This document shows positions 25,908-34,461 of a DNA stretch of 64,000 nt, piece after piece (the stretch's first letter is position 1; each line of letters begins with the position of its first letter). The notes beneath the pieces are model-generated. The model did no database searches. It was not told where the DNA came from and was given only the letters and a program-made list of their open reading frames with translations. Origin of the DNA: Euzebya pacifica (GTDB lineage: Bacteria; Actinomycetota; Nitriliruptoria; Euzebyales; Euzebyaceae); contig NZ_CP031165.1 of assembly GCF_003344865.1 (NCBI RefSeq), forward strand, positions 3,973,910 through 4,037,909. Reading direction: 5' to 3'. A program made the position numbers and the translations under genes.

Positions 25908-26987
25908 TCAGATAGCGGTCTCGGCCGCCAGGTCGTCCTCGTCGAACTCCGGGAGGAGCGCGCGGGTGCCCATCACCGTGGCGATGGCCATGGGGATCAG
26001 CTGAGCGACGCTGAGGGCGACCACGACGCGGGTCAGCCACCCGGGGAACAGGCTGGCGGTCTGCGAGGCCCCGAGGACGGAGAAGTACAGCAGGCCCTGG
26101 CCGATGAACACCGCGCCCGCACCGACGCCGAGGGCGGTGAACGCGCCCTCCTCCCCCTGGATGGCCCGCCAGGCACCGAACGCGGCGATGGCGATGAAGA
26201 AGGCCGTCTGGACCGCCGACACCGATGACTGCGAGAGCGGGATCGGGGTCGCGAACAGGTCGTCGACGAGGTGGATGACGTTGGCGAGGGCCAGGATCAT
26301 CAGGGTGATCCCCATCGGCGTGGACAGGCCCCGCCACTCGACCTTCTCCAAATCCGGCTTGGTGCGCAGGCCGATGGCCAGTGGGATCATCAGGACCAGC
26401 AGCGCCGGGACCAGCCAGATCCACGGGCTGCCGCCGGGCACCCAGATCAGGTCACCGACGACGGCGTACTCGGTCTCGCCGACGACGAAGGGCACCTCCC
26501 AGCCGGGGTTGACGACCTGCTCGCTGTCGGGGTCGGTCTGCACGCCCGGCGGTTCGGCGGACGCCATCCAGTGGATGCGGTGGTCGTGCCAGGCGTAGGA
26601 GTTGCCGTCGCTGACCTGCTCCCACTCGGGGTCGCCGTTGACGTCGACCTCCGGCGGGATCCGCACATCGCCGAACCGGTCCTCGTTGAGGTAGGTGGCG
26701 TGGGAGTTGCGGTTGCGGAACACCCCGTCGGGGCCGATCCGCAGGTAGGGCTCCTGGGAGTACCCCGGGATGGTGACCTCGTCGTCGCTGGTGTTGGTCA
26801 GCTCCAGGTACTCGTCGGAGTTGATCACCGCCCAGGACAGCCCGTCGACGCTGGGGACGTCGGTGATGAGGCTGAGGAAGTTGCTGGCATCCGACCCACG
26901 GCCGTGTGCCAGCGCCGGGCCGGCCAGGCCGACGGTGGCCACGGCAACGAGCAGGGTGAGGACGAACAGTCGGTGAAGGGAGGTCAT
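25908..26987 (-). CDS. Conserved exported membrane protein with His-rich extracellular domain
   Basis: A 359-aa protein with a signal peptide (LFVLTLLVAVATVGLAGPALAHG). An extracellular beta-rich domain (residues about 28-190) contains YLELTNTSDDEVTIPGYS and SYAWHDHRIHWMASAEPPG, a His/Trp cluster that could hold a metal. Five or six membrane spans follow (WIWLVPALLVLMIPLAIGL, ITLMILALANVIHLVDDL, FFIAIAAFGAWRAIQG and others). I recall similar actinobacterial proteins but no function. Its ATG overlaps the upstream Nudix stop as ATGA, so the two are translationally coupled. Confidence 0.7.
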   Translation of the reverse strand: MTSLHRLFVLTLLVAVATVGLAGPALAHGRGSDASNFLSLITDVPSVDGLSWAVINSDEYLELTNTSDDEVTIPGYSQEPYLRIGPDGVFRNRNSHATYLNEDRFGDVRIPPEVDVNGDPEWEQVSDGNSYAWHDHRIHWMASAEPPGVQTDPDSEQVVNPGWEVPFVVGETEYAVVGDLIWVPGGSPWIWLVPALLVLMIPLAIGLRTKPDLEKVEWRGLSTPMGITLMILALANVIHLVDDLFATPIPLSQSSVSAVQTAFFIAIAAFGAWRAIQGEEGAFTALGVGAGAVFIGQGLLYFSVLGASQTASLFPGWLTRVVVALSVAQLIPMAIATVMGTRALLPEFDEDDLAAETAI

Positions 26988-29053: not shown

Positions 29054-29095
29054 GATCACAGGTGGGCGATCACAGGTGCGCGGTCACAGGTGGGC
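29054..29095. repeat. Three tandem 14-bp repeats at the 3' end of the multicopper oxidase gene
   Basis: (G)(A/G)TCACAGGTG(G/C)GC is repeated at 29054-29067, 29068-29081 and 29082-29095. The third copy contains the last codons and stop of the oxidase gene on the minus strand. Confidence 0.7.
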
Positions 29096-31375
29096 GGCCA
29101 GCGTGGCCTCGGCGGCCAGCCCCACGGCGGCCTCGCCCCCGACGATCCTGATCCGGTCGACCGCCGCGTCGGCCAGCAGCTGGTCGGTCACCGCTGTCGA
29201 GCCGGTGTCGTCGACGAGCACCAGCATCCCGTCCCGGCGGGCGGCGATGCCGGCGGACAGCGCGTCGGGGAACCGGGTGGCGCTGGCCGCGTAGGCCGTG
29301 GTCCGCAGCCCGGCCGTCCGGGCGAACGCCGCCGCCGTCGCGATCCGGTCCCGCCCGGCGATCCTCGTGACCGCGAGCCCCTGTTCGGTGATCTCGGCGG
29401 CCACGTCCTCGCTGACGGCCGCCGGTCCGCCGGCGATGACCACCGACGACGCGCCGAGGTCGTCGATCGCCTGTCGGCAAGTCGCCGACAGGGCCGTCGG
29501 GGCGGTCAGCAGTACCGGGATCCCGAGCACGCCTGCGGCCAGGGCGTCCGGGAACCGGTCGGCCGTGGCGACGACCACCCGGTCGGCCCGGTCCGCCAGC
29601 GTGCGCGCGACCCCGGCGGCCAGCGCCACCGGGTCGTCGACGTCGACGCGGCTGGTCGGCGCGATCCCGGCCAGCACCCCCTCGATGGCGGCCGACACCT
29701 GCCCCGTCGACCCGGCGACGACGATCCGGTCGGGGCCACGGCGGCGCAGCTCCTCCTCCGCGACCTCGTCCAGCGCCTCGCCCAGCACCAGCGCCAGGGC
29801 GTCGGCCAGCGCCGCGCCGGCCAGGGCACCGGCCCACTCCAGCCCGCTGGCGACGACGACCGTGCCGCCCGTCCCGCCGCCGTGCGCCGACACCGCCGCC
29901 GCGGTCCGGACCCGGTTGCTGCCGGCGATCCGGCCGAGGTCCACGACGCGGAACTGGCTCATCATGTCGTGGTCCTCGTGCTCGAGGACGTGGCAGTGGT
30001 ACATGAAGTCGCCGAGGTGGTCGGCGAACCGGGCGTCGAGCTCGACGGTCTCGAAGGCGCGCACCAGGACGGTGTCCTTCCAGCCCTCGTCCTCGGGCCG
30101 CAGCGGCAGGGCCACCCCGCTGCTGGTCCGCTGCCGCACGAGGAAGCTGACCAGGTGCAGGTGGATGGGGTGGCCGAAGGACGTCGTGTTGACCAGGCGC
30201 CAGCGTTCGACGGCGCCCAGCCGCGCGTACACGTCACGGATGGCGTCGTCGAACCCGTGCCCGTTGAGCAGGAAGCGGCCGCCGTGTTCGTCGAGGGTGA
30301 TGGTGCGGACGACCTCCGGCGGGTCCAGGTCGGGGGCGGGGCCCAACGAGGTCGGCAGGATCGCGGGCTCCGCTGGTCCCCCGGTCACGTCGACGGCCAT
30401 CAGGTCGCCCACGCCGGCGTCGAGGATGACCACCCGGTCGCCGTCGCCCATCCGGGACAGGTCCAGCAGCAGGTCGACGCGCTCCGACGGCCACACCTCC
30501 ACCTCCCCCCTCGAGGCAGGGGTCGCCAGCAGCCCCCCGTCGGTGCCCACCTGCACCAACGGCATGCCGTCGGCCCGGCCCAGCCGGTAGGGCCGGGCGT
30601 TGGAGGCGTTGAGGATCCGCAGCCGCAGCAGGCCGGGCTCGACGGTCAGCACCGGCCGGTCGACGCCGTTGACCAGCACGACGTCGCCGAGGAACCCCGT
30701 GTGCCCGACGGGGTCGTAGACCAGCTGGCCGTCGGCGTCGAAGGTCTTGTCGGTCAGCGCCACGGGGATGTCGCGCTCGTCCCCGTTGGGCAGGCCGAGG
30801 CCGTCGTGGGCCTGGTCGACCAGCAGGTAGCTGCCGGCCAGGCCCCGGTAGACCCGTTCCGCGGTCCGCATCAGCAGGTGGTCGTGGTACCAGAGGTGGG
30901 CCGCCCGCTGCGCGTTGTCGAAGGTGTACCGACGCTGCCCACCGGTGGGGATCAGGTCCCGGACGTGCCCGTCGTGCGCGGCCGCGACATGGGCGCCGTG
31001 CAGGTGCAGCACGGCCGGTTCGTCGAGCTCGTTGACGACGTCGATGTCGACGACCTGCCCGGGCCGGGCGATGACGGTCGGCCCGGGGAAGGTCCCGCCG
31101 AAGGTCAACATCGTGGTTGCTGCGCCGGGCAGCAACGACACGGCCGTGCGTGTCACCGGCAGGACGACCGGTTCGGTGCCGGGACGCACCGTCGGCGGGA
31201 TCGGCAGCGGGGTCGTGAAGGCCTCGGCGCGCAACGTCGCGGGGGTGCGACGGCGGGCCGGCAGCGCGCAGCCAAGAGGCTGATCGGAGCGGCTCGAGAC
31301 GGACCCCCGGTACCCGAACTGGAGGTGCCCTGCCCCTCCGACGATGCCCCGGATCAGCGATCGCCGAGAAAGCAC
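29084..31375 (-). CDS. Exported multicopper oxidase fused to CWB2 cell-wall-binding repeats
   Basis: A 763-aa two-part protein. Residues 1-20 form a Tat-like signal (LSRRSLIRGIVGGAG). Residues about 50-485 form a three-domain multicopper oxidase with intact copper motifs: HLHGAH (124-129), WYHDH (162-166), HPIHLH (402-407) and HCHVLEHEDHDMM (460-472), giving Cys461 and axial Met for the type 1 site. This resembles CotA/CueO-type oxidases, which oxidise phenols or metal ions and reduce O2 to water. Residues about 495-763 form three CWB2 units (RFPDALAAG, SVVIAGGPAAVSEDV, RIRIVGGEAAV). The GTG start is six bases after TATCGT; a TTG 18 bases upstream is less likely. It is divergent from the cupredoxin gene. 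Confidence 0.9.
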   Translation of the reverse strand: MLSRRSLIRGIVGGAGHLQFGYRGSVSSRSDQPLGCALPARRRTPATLRAEAFTTPLPIPPTVRPGTEPVVLPVTRTAVSLLPGAATTMLTFGGTFPGPTVIARPGQVVDIDVVNELDEPAVLHLHGAHVAAAHDGHVRDLIPTGGQRRYTFDNAQRAAHLWYHDHLLMRTAERVYRGLAGSYLLVDQAHDGLGLPNGDERDIPVALTDKTFDADGQLVYDPVGHTGFLGDVVLVNGVDRPVLTVEPGLLRLRILNASNARPYRLGRADGMPLVQVGTDGGLLATPASRGEVEVWPSERVDLLLDLSRMGDGDRVVILDAGVGDLMAVDVTGGPAEPAILPTSLGPAPDLDPPEVVRTITLDEHGGRFLLNGHGFDDAIRDVYARLGAVERWRLVNTTSFGHPIHLHLVSFLVRQRTSSGVALPLRPEDEGWKDTVLVRAFETVELDARFADHLGDFMYHCHVLEHEDHDMMSQFRVVDLGRIAGSNRVRTAAAVSAHGGGTGGTVVVASGLEWAGALAGAALADALALVLGEALDEVAEEELRRRGPDRIVVAGSTGQVSAAIEGVLAGIAPTSRVDVDDPVALAAGVARTLADRADRVVVATADRFPDALAAGVLGIPVLLTAPTALSATCRQAIDDLGASSVVIAGGPAAVSEDVAAEITEQGLAVTRIAGRDRIATAAAFARTAGLRTTAYAASATRFPDALSAGIAARRDGMLVLVDDTGSTAVTDQLLADAAVDRIRIVGGEAAVGLAAEATLAAHL

Positions 31376-31542
31376 GACACGACGATATCTCAACGGTTAA
31401 CGTCATGGATCTCGGGCGGCGAAGGTGCGTCAGCACCAGGGCTGAGGGGCTTCCCCCGACACCGTTCGAGGAGGGCTTGATCACACCCCGGCAACGGGCG
31501 GGCGACCGCATTTTTCCGGGGACACGAACGAAGGGGACTGTC

Positions 31543-33654
31543 ATGCAGAGATTCGTCCGATCCGCCACGGCCGTGCTGGCCACCGCGCTACTCGTCCTGT
31601 CGGTACTGGCGGGGCCCGCGTCCGCGCAGGCCACCGAGATCAGCATCATCGAGTTCGCCTACGAGCCCTACGACGCGGTCGTCGAGCTCGGCACCACGGT
31701 CGAGTGGACCAACAACGGCACGGCGACCCACACCGTGACCGCGGCCGATGGATCGTTCGACAACCTGTTCAACCCCGGAGACACGTTCTCCTACACGCCG
31801 GAGGAGGCGGGCCAGATCGGCTACTTCTGCCGGTTCCACGGGTCCCCCGACGCCGGTCAGCGCGGCTTCCTCACCGTGTACGAGGAGGGCACAGAGGCGC
31901 CCGAACCCCAGGTCCCCCCGACCGCGGAGTTCACCACGGTAACCGCCACCGACGACAGCAACGTCGCCGCGGCGATCGCCTGGACGTCGCTGCTGGACGG
32001 TCCGCAGGAAACGGTGCTGCTGGGCCGTGACGACGACTTCGCCGACCTGCTGGCCGCCGGTGCCACCGGCCGGCCGTTCCTGGTGACCCCGACCGACGCC
32101 CTCGACGACCGGGTCCTGGCCGAGCTGCAGCGCCTGACCGCCCAGCAGGTCGTGGTCGTGGGCGGCACCGCGGCCGTCAGCGAGGACGTGGTCGGCGAGC
32201 TCGAGGCGGCCGGCTTCACGGTCACCCGCGTCGCCGGTGACACCCGCATCGAAACCGCGATCGACCTTGCCGACCGGTTCTTCGTCGCCGGTGGCGGGTT
32301 CGCCCAGCCGCCGTCGGACACACCGCAGCCCGGCGCGATCATCGCCCGCGCGTTCGGCACCGAGGACAACCCGACGGCCGGCTTCGCCGACTCCCTGGGC
32401 GCAGCGTCGGCCGGGGCCAACATGGGCATCCCGATCCTGGTGGCCGGGCCCGACGGGCTGCCGGCAGGTGTCGGCTCCTTCCTGGCCACCAACGGCATCG
32501 GCCACGTCGTGGTCGTCGGTGGTGAGGCCGCTGTGCCCTCGGCGGTGACCGATGGCCTCGACGACCTCGGCATCACCTGGGAACGGGTGGCCGGGGCCAG
32601 CCGCGACGGCACCGCTGCGGCGCTGATGGGTTACATGGACGGCCTGGGAGTCCAGTACGGCAACGTCGTGCTGGTCGACGGGTTCAACGACAACGCATGG
32701 GCACAGGGCTTCGGCGCCTCCGCGCTGCGGTCGGCCGTGCTGCTGACCAACGGGCCGGACGTGCCCGCGGTCACCCAGGACGCCCTGGCCACGTTCGAGA
32801 GCTCGGTGCTCCTGACGTTCTTCGGCGCCCGGAACGTCCGCTGTGCGCCCGGTGTCGACGAGGCCGCGTGTGACGTGGTCGGGGCCGTGGTGTTCACCCC
32901 GTTCATCAGCCCGGCGTCCGTCATCGGCATCCTCGAGGGCGACAACGAGGTCCCCGACGGCGCTGGGGCCGGCAACGGCATCGGCGGGCTGGCCCGTCCG
33001 TCCGACGGCGGTGGCATGTGCTGGGCCTACGACACCCTGCTGGTCGACACGATCACCGGTGCGCACGTGCATCGCGCGGCGGCCGGCGAGAACGGCGACG
33101 TGGTGATCCCCCTGGGCGTTCCGGGACCCGGTGACCACGAGGCCAACGGCTGCCTGCTCGATGTCGACCAGGACCTGGTCGACGAGATCTTCGCCAACCC
33201 CGGCGAGTTCTACATCAACGTGCACTCCGAGGAGTTCGGTGGCGGCGCGGTCCGGGACAACCTGTTCGCGTTCGACGAGTTCATCGTCGCCGACCTGTCC
33301 GGCGACCAGGAGGTCCCCGGTCCGGGTGCCCCGATGGCCGGCGGCGTGTCGTTCCTGACCGTCAACGACGAGGACCAGGTCTGCCACCTCACCATCGCCG
33401 GTGGGCTGGAGGGTCCGGCGACGGCCGCCCACATCCACACCGGTGGGGCCGACGAGTCCGGCGACGTCCTGCTCGCGCTGTCCGTCTCCCCGGCAGGCAT
33501 TCCCGTGCATGCCGACTGCATGGAGGACACCACACCCGATGTGCTGTCCGCCTTCCTGGCCGACCCGGCTGGCCACTACGTGAACGTCCACACCGACGCG
33601 TTCCCGGCAGGCGCCATCCGCGGACAGGCCAACCCGCAGTACATCATCCCGTAG
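31543..33654 (+). CDS. Secreted cupredoxin-CWB2-CHRD protein
   Basis: A 703-aa protein with a Sec signal peptide (cleavage near ASA-QA, residue 29). Residues 30-113 form a plastocyanin-type cupredoxin with His63, Cys96 and His99 as type 1 copper ligands; Gln106 occupies the usual axial Met position. Residues about 130-440 form CWB2 wall-binding units (VVVVGGTAAVSEDV, RVAGDTRIETAIDLA, FADSLGAASAGA). Residues about 465-565 and 590-700 are two CHRD domains (ILEGDNEVPDG, GAHVHRAAAGENG; DLSGDQEVPGPG, AAHIHTGGADESG). The ATG has AAGGGGA upstream. It is divergent from the wall-anchored multicopper oxidase, its likely redox partner. Confidence 0.9.
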   Translation: MQRFVRSATAVLATALLVLSVLAGPASAQATEISIIEFAYEPYDAVVELGTTVEWTNNGTATHTVTAADGSFDNLFNPGDTFSYTPEEAGQIGYFCRFHGSPDAGQRGFLTVYEEGTEAPEPQVPPTAEFTTVTATDDSNVAAAIAWTSLLDGPQETVLLGRDDDFADLLAAGATGRPFLVTPTDALDDRVLAELQRLTAQQVVVVGGTAAVSEDVVGELEAAGFTVTRVAGDTRIETAIDLADRFFVAGGGFAQPPSDTPQPGAIIARAFGTEDNPTAGFADSLGAASAGANMGIPILVAGPDGLPAGVGSFLATNGIGHVVVVGGEAAVPSAVTDGLDDLGITWERVAGASRDGTAAALMGYMDGLGVQYGNVVLVDGFNDNAWAQGFGASALRSAVLLTNGPDVPAVTQDALATFESSVLLTFFGARNVRCAPGVDEAACDVVGAVVFTPFISPASVIGILEGDNEVPDGAGAGNGIGGLARPSDGGGMCWAYDTLLVDTITGAHVHRAAAGENGDVVIPLGVPGPGDHEANGCLLDVDQDLVDEIFANPGEFYINVHSEEFGGGAVRDNLFAFDEFIVADLSGDQEVPGPGAPMAGGVSFLTVNDEDQVCHLTIAGGLEGPATAAHIHTGGADESGDVLLALSVSPAGIPVHADCMEDTTPDVLSAFLADPAGHYVNVHTDAFPAGAIRGQANPQYIIP

Positions 33655-33741: not shown

Positions 33742-33886
33742 GGCATCCGGACACGATTGTGGCGAGGGGTGCACCCCTGCTCCCGCCCCTACGATCGTCG
33801 CCGGTCACCAACCTCCCGGGTTTGGCATCCGGCCACGATTGTGGCGAGGGGGGCACCCGTGCACCGGTTCCTACGATCGTCGCCGG
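33742..33886. repeat. Two tandem copies of an 82-bp element upstream of the SigE-type sigma gene
   Basis: GGCATCCGG starts at 33742 and 33824, and ACGATCGTCGCCGG ends each unit at 33804 and 33886: a period of exactly 82. Shared internal blocks are CACGATTGTGGCGAGGGG and GCACCC; the first copy contains the palindrome GGGGTGCACCCC. The gap 33655-33972 holds only this and the terminator. The repeats lie just upstream of the sigma factor start, so a regulatory role is possible. Confidence 0.75.
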
Positions 33887-33972
33887 AACTCAACCCCTGG
33901 GGAGGGTGGGACGTCGGACATGGTGAGATGCCACCACTTGTCCATGACCACCGACCCCGATCCGTGCCGCCG

Positions 33973-34461
33973 GTGACTGCCACGTCGCTGGAGCAGGCCT
34001 TTGCCGCCCACCATGCCGGGGCGGTGCGGCTGGCCTACCTGCTGTGCGGCGACCACGAGCAGGCCGAGGACGCCGTGGCCACCGTGTGGCTGAAGGTGCA
34101 CCGCCGGCTCGAACGCGGGCCCGTCGACGACATCGGCGCCTACGTGCGTCGGGCGGTCGTCAACGAGGTCAACTCGTGGTTCCGCAAGCTCGGCGTCCGA
34201 CGCCGCGAGGCAGCACGACGCAAGGGCGACCACCGCGGCACCTACGGGCACGACGAGCGGATCGCCGACGCCGACGCCGTCCTCCACGCGCTGGACCAGC
34301 TGCCGTCGAGGACGAGGGCTGCTGTGGTCCTGCGGTACTACGCCGACCTGTCGGTGGCCGACACCGCCGCCGCACTCGGGGTCAGCGAAGGAACGGTCAA
34401 GTCCAGCGTGTCGCGAGGGCTGACCACCCTGCGGGGGATCATGGAGGAGGACGAGCGATGA
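33973..34461 (+). CDS. ECF sigma factor, SigE-type actinobacterial group
   Basis: A 162-aa protein. Region 2 is LEQAFAAHHAGAVRLAYLLCGDHEQAEDAVATVWLKVHRRLE. The linker has YVRRAVVNEVNSWFRK. Region 4 is LDQLPSRTRAAVVLRYYADLSVADTAAALGVSEGTVKSSVSRGLTTLR with its helix-turn-helix. This matches the SigE-type ECF group (such as Streptomyces SigE-like factors), usually controlled by membrane partners. I chose GTG 33973; ATG 33928 is in frame but adds sequence overlapping the repeat region, and neither has a good ribosome site. Its TGA overlaps the next ATG as ATGA. Confidence 0.85.
   Translation: MTATSLEQAFAAHHAGAVRLAYLLCGDHEQAEDAVATVWLKVHRRLERGPVDDIGAYVRRAVVNEVNSWFRKLGVRRREAARRKGDHRGTYGHDERIADADAVLHALDQLPSRTRAAVVLRYYADLSVADTAAALGVSEGTVKSSVSRGLTTLRGIMEEDER

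Follow-up and report, generated by a model that had tools for sequence, protein, structure and literature searches.

The domains described here are all known from other systems. For the CWB2 proteins of Clostridioides difficile, binding to PSII, a polymer of the wall, has been proposed (PMC5817068). The superoxide dismutase (SOD) fold of the CHRD domain is known from chordin, whose metal ligands are lost and in whose CHRD domains no metal was seen (PMC13382577). A CHRD protein has been reported in the spore envelope of Brevibacillus (PMC5335551). Stellacyanin (Gln ligand) has a potential of 260-265 mV, whereas that of plastocyanin is 375 mV; in rusticyanin the M148Q variant lies at 563 mV versus 667 mV (PMC11881046). 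What is new, going by the literature search, is two fusions, of a multicopper oxidase (MCO) with CWB2 repeats and of a cupredoxin with CWB2 and CHRD domains, and the conserved pairing of their genes. Neither fusion was found in the open-access literature, in agreement with an earlier note on this DNA, which knew of no description of their combination. The pairing was not found either; most subscription journals lay outside the search, and absence from the literature is unproven.

The window (the whole stretch of 64,000 nucleotides that was analysed) corresponds to 3.97-4.04 Mb of the 5.8-Mb contig of Euzebya pacifica (G000), whose genome of 6.37 Mb is in two contigs. It was compared with a class sample of 66 genomes (Nitriliruptoria) and a phylum sample of 396 genomes (E at most 1e-60).

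Architecture of the two proteins

Features of the MCO-CWB2 gene, of its cupredoxin-CWB2-CHRD partner and of the GMC-linked paralogues of the partner. Positions are those of the window unless a locus is named.
Feature	Position	Strand	Basis or remark
MCO-CWB2 gene	29084..31375	-	GTG start; Pfam Cu-oxidase_3, Cu-oxidase_2, CW_binding_2 x3
MCO-CWB2 gene, alternative start	29084-31393	-	in-frame TTG at 31393
Three CWB2 wall-binding repeats of MCO	29087..29932	-	Pfam, 3 stretches
MCO catalytic region, all T1/T2/T3 ligands including axial Met	29936..31216	-	invariant alignment columns
Tat motif SRRSLIR, then unusually polar core	31349..31369	-	read from sequence and from an alignment with G023 and G045; conserved in G022
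167-bp gap	31376..31542		no sigma-70-like site, terminator or Rfam match
Cupredoxin-CWB2-CHRD-CHRD gene, 703 aa	31543..33654	+	ORF and Pfam
Sec-type signal peptide	31543..31626	+	MQRFVRSATAVLATALLVLSVLAGPASAQ, read from sequence
Plastocyanin-like cupredoxin, ligands His63, Cys96, His99, axial Gln106	31627..31890	+	Pfam, alignment, plastocyanin match
CWB2 region, two Pfam repeats and divergent third	31945..32877	+	Pfam, profile, model
CHRD domain 1, HxH...NxH triad and Cys pair	32911..33273	+	Pfam, alignment
CHRD domain 2, predicted Cu/Zn-SOD fold, HxH...NxH triad	33286..33633	+	alignment, model
GMC-linked paralogue, G000:C1	L094:6519-10196
GMC-linked paralogue, G022	L099:1688-5352
GMC-linked paralogue, G024	L095:6376-10132

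The coordinates and architecture given for both genes in the earlier note were recovered by ORFs, Pfam domains, profile and model. The fusion of each protein to CWB2 repeats was found again by Pfam, profile and model, and so was the back-to-back arrangement, in which the gap measures 167 bp only if the MCO starts at GTG.

The MCO has ten His, one Cys and an axial Met in four motifs that are invariant across four homologues (TTG numbering: HLH 130/132, HDH 170/172, HPIHLH 408/411/413, HCH 466-468, H472, M477). Cu-oxidase_3 and Cu-oxidase_2 both score above their Pfam cut-offs, as in three-domain multicopper oxidases. The nearest solved structures are bilirubin oxidase (8z59), CotA and CueO. The best NCBIfam match is the CueO equivalog NF008205, at 246 bits far below its cut-off of 525 bits, and the translated sequence holds no Met-rich insert near the T1 site, a CueO trait. 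Four MCO genes are found in G000 by Cu-oxidase_3; two of the others are longer, with no CWB2 in their C-terminal tails, and the fourth is a 396-aa frame.

The cupredoxin scores 25.9 in Pfam, just below the gathering cut-off of 27, and matches plastocyanin 1bxu at 2.8e-8. Its equatorial ligands (His63, Cys96, His99) are invariant in seven homologues. The axial position is Gln106 in the window, in the sister species G022 and in the three GMC-linked paralogues, and Met in the orthologues of G045 and G006; the window domain does not have the plastocyanin-type ligand set, with its axial Met. The copper motifs of both proteins, earlier called intact, are thus exact in the MCO and kept at the three equatorial positions of the cupredoxin, but its axial ligand is Gln, not Met. 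Copper binding by the Gln106 cupredoxin is plausible from its sequence, and by analogy with the Gln proteins cited above its potential is probably lowered. Since the orthologues of G045 and G006 have an axial Met, a low potential would be no fixed property of the pair.

Export had also been claimed for both proteins. The partner has an ordinary Sec-type signal peptide. In the MCO the motif SRRSLIR is intact and suggests export via Tat, but the core that follows (GIVGGAGHLQFGYRGSVSS) is polar in both G000 and G022. A frameshift in this region was considered and rejected: the region is polar in each of the three frames, and on both sides of it the homologues match the frame as read.

Both proteins have three CWB2 repeats, the usual number in CWB2 wall-binding proteins: three Pfam stretches in the MCO, two and a divergent third in the partner. 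A profile of the partner (residues 130-427) aligns to the CWB2 region of Cwp8. The whole-protein model of the partner, from which structural claims exclude the cupredoxin (pLDDT about 30-45), has a three-repeat CWB2 region matching Cwp6/Cwp8, and its trimer matches Cwp6/Cwp8/SlpA. By analogy with C. difficile, both proteins would bind a wall polymer via CWB2. The genome holds at least about 107 CWB2 loci (from 150 scored matches out of 471 candidates), an unusually large wall-protein set. A CWB2 fusion alone is therefore a habit of the lineage and means little; the pairing means more.

Pfam CHRD scores 129.8 bits in the partner, above cut-off, in two stretches. The His-x-His, the Asn-x-His and the Cys pair are invariant in 17 aligned CHRD domains. 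Both His motifs (His-x-His...His), which match three of the four SOD copper ligands, are kept in 32/38 CHRD domains of the class, where CHRD occurs in 34/66 genomes. The model of the second CHRD domain (pLDDT 77, four-row alignment) aligns with Cu/Zn SODs at Z 11.3 and rmsd 2.6-2.8 over 106-112 residues; in Foldseek its probabilities against SODs reach 1.00 but E is above 0.02. HxH lies in the fourth strand of the model and the last His in the seventh. H46, H48 and H120 of SOD1 are taken here to occupy the same strands, a correspondence of strand order and not of residue superposition. H63 and the zinc loop of Cu,Zn SOD have no counterpart in CHRD, which thus lacks the full set of four copper ligands and zinc loop. 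An hhalign match of CHRD to human SOD1, which serves for comparison and not as proof, is weak (E 0.1), with AHIH aligned to FHVH. A PDB search with the sequence of the second domain alone returned chance matches only; the CHRD profile search recovered chordin. The model and the conserved triad suggest that microbial CHRD may bind copper through its three His. No report of such binding was found in a limited literature search.

Conservation of the pair and its relatives

In the class sample of 66 genomes, a full MCO-CWB2 protein is found in G000, G022, G023 and G045. The full cupredoxin-CWB2-CHRD protein is present in two copies each in G000 and G022, and also in G006, G024 and G045. The 396-genome phylum sample gave no instance of either fusion outside the class. 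A scan of genome contigs yielded a single Euzebyaceae MAG and, beyond it, no more than a weak match in Streptomyces.

The earlier note had made conservation of the two genes as neighbours a test of its proposal. G022 has the same divergent pair as G000; the two are syntenic over 20 kb, so their pair counts as one observation. In G045 (distant family) the two genes are neighbours in convergent orientation, with 66 bp between them, and the outer neighbours differ. In G006 (Euzebyaceae MAG; same order, other family), a 3.3-kb contig carries the cupredoxin gene and, across a 159-bp gap, a divergent MCO-like start: a GTG, a Tat-like motif and 60 residues, then the contig end. This start has a profile E of 0.046 in 1.7 million six-frame residues, which places it among true MCO starts but weakly; the rest of the gene was searched for and is absent from that assembly. 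The pair is broken in the congener G023, whose MCO-CWB2 has no cupredoxin neighbour, and in G024 the cupredoxin protein occurs but no MCO-CWB2. The test thus came out in favour of neighbourhood in one case for G000 and G022, in G045 and, more weakly, in G006, and against it in G023. Since the orientation is convergent in G045 and divergent elsewhere, it is adjacency that is conserved, not a shared divergent promoter. That the two genes are conserved neighbours over a long evolutionary distance is strongly supported by these sequence comparisons.

The same data bear on the view that these are two independent wall proteins, CWB2 being the general anchor of the lineage and the genes being neighbours by inheritance, with no joint function. 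The abundance of CWB2 loci in the genome, the synteny that deprives G022 of independence and the broken pair of G023 all agree with it. It is nevertheless unlikely: members of both families are again neighbours in G045 despite a different orientation and different other neighbours, the odds of a chance neighbour are inferred to be ~2/4,900 per gene among ~4,900 genes, and the G006 contig adds weaker counter-support. As the pair is kept together across distant relatives, the two proteins probably work together on the cell surface.

In the MCO tree, built from catalytic domains, the four MCO-CWB2 proteins make up a single clade (97/97; second tree, the first, with long branches, not having settled the clade), apart from the SLH-anchored MCO of G002 and from the non-anchored MCOs of the phylum. 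In the partner tree the MCO-linked proteins (window, G022 and G045, with G006) group at 88/92, and the GMC-linked paralogues (G000, G022, G024) form a separate group at 97/95. All sampled full-length partners with readable flanks adjoin an oxidoreductase gene.

Several other arrangements were observed. In three genomes the gene for a second cupredoxin-CWB2-CHRD protein follows a GMC FAD oxidoreductase gene of the same strand at a distance of 39-106 bp. This oxidoreductase has no evident signal and so cannot serve the paralogues as a direct electron partner across the membrane. In G023 the MCO-CWB2 gene lies directly behind a CWB2 NHL/beta-propeller gene (L092:6086-10671; 53 bp, same strand). 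In G002 (other genus), SLH-type repeats replace CWB2 both in an MCO (L097:8254-10209; Pfam) and in a CHRD protein (L079; read from sequence).

The gap between the paired genes (31376-31542) gave no match in a scan for sigma-70 promoters and terminators, and the Rfam scan of 30900-31800 none up to E 5. A 96-bp identical stretch over the MCO start was considered as a conserved RNA element and rejected as ordinary: the same alignment has other identical runs, of 97 and 101 bp. The cupredoxin gene is followed downstream by an ECF-type sigma factor gene (33838-34461, +), which shares its strand. The product of the gene at 25908-26987 (-), conserved in G022, is an exported membrane protein whose start reads 'AHGRGSD' and which contains the motif 'YAWHDHRIHWM'; it has no Pfam match above cut-off.

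Possible joint function

The preferred reading, held tentatively, is that of an ancient two-protein copper redox module fixed in the wall, in which the cupredoxin would pass electrons to the MCO. Both proteins would be exported and most likely sit in the wall, bound to a wall polymer through CWB2 like the CWB2 proteins of C. difficile. The Gln-type cupredoxin, of probably lower potential, would collect electrons at the surface, with Cu(I), Fe(II), Mn(II) or phenolics as donors, and hand them to the type 1 copper of the MCO, which would reduce O2 to water. The His triads of CHRD may bind copper, and hold or relay it. The combination of a Gln-type cupredoxin with a Met-type site in the MCO is consistent with a flow from cupredoxin to oxidase; handling of copper is nearly as likely. 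The domains and ligands, the single MCO-CWB2 clade, the neighbourhood in G022, G045 and, weakly, G006, the separate group of MCO-linked partners and the oxidoreductase gene beside every readable partner count in favour of this module. Against it count the unpaired proteins of G023 and G024, the other orientation in G045, the axial Met of G045 and G006, and the GMC-linked paralogues with their signal-less neighbour.

In that second reading, possible though doubtful, the partner would bind or buffer copper in the wall, and the MCO would oxidise Cu(I) to the less harmful Cu(II) or be loaded with copper by its neighbour, with no electron chain. The partner has three potential copper sites to offer (one type 1, two CHRD His triads), and CueO is the best NCBIfam match of the MCO, albeit at less than half of the cut-off score. 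Yet no copper regulator, transporter or chaperone gene is seen beside the pair, the MCO is without the Met-rich insert, and among solved structures bilirubin oxidase and CotA match it better than CueO does. Metal binding by CHRD is moreover unproven, and chordin CHRD has no visible metal (PMC13382577).

The same likeness of the MCO to CotA and bilirubin oxidase would suit a surface laccase or Mn/phenol oxidase, the cupredoxin-CHRD protein then being a structural or adhesive component of the wall. The Brevibacillus spore-envelope protein (PMC5335551) and the wide occurrence of CHRD in the class point the same way. This is very unlikely: a purely structural role would not need the His, Cys and His ligands that all seven homologues keep.

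The preferred module has a stricter form, a fixed electron chain in the wall in which the Gln cupredoxin and two SOD-fold, three-His copper CHRD domains feed the CWB2-anchored MCO. This form is improbable; if true, it would make microbial CHRD a copper-binding family. The broader reading, if right, would add a copper redox module fixed in the wall to a class of actinobacteria that has been little studied, and the hundred-odd CWB2 proteins and the CHRD domain, both orphan features, would gain a meaning that can be tested. Even without electron exchange, the conserved pair offers a concrete way into the role of CWB2-anchored oxidases outside clostridia.

Comparison with known systems

The window MCO shares with CotA, bilirubin oxidase and CueO the domain order, the four copper-ligand motifs, a C-terminal motif of HCHxxEHEDHDMM type and the Tat motif. 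It differs from them by its C-terminal CWB2 repeats, and from CueO by the missing insert and a score far under the equivalog cut-off. The SLH-anchored MCO of G002 likewise joins an MCO to a wall-anchoring module; there, however, the module is SLH and not CWB2, no cupredoxin neighbour is seen and the protein is on a separate branch of the MCO tree.

The window cupredoxin has the His-Cys-His ligands of plastocyanin/amicyanin-type cupredoxins and the axial Gln of stellacyanin; its sequence is nearest to plastocyanin, not to phytocyanin. Unlike all of these, it is fused to CWB2 and CHRD. The partner has in common with microbial CHRD proteins and chordin the CHRD domain and its SOD-like fold; in contrast to chordin, its CHRD domains keep HxH...NxH. 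The CWB2 repeat trimer is alike, in sequence and predicted fold, to those of Cwp6, Cwp8 and SlpA of C. difficile, whereas the cargo that it carries in the window consists of copper redox domains.
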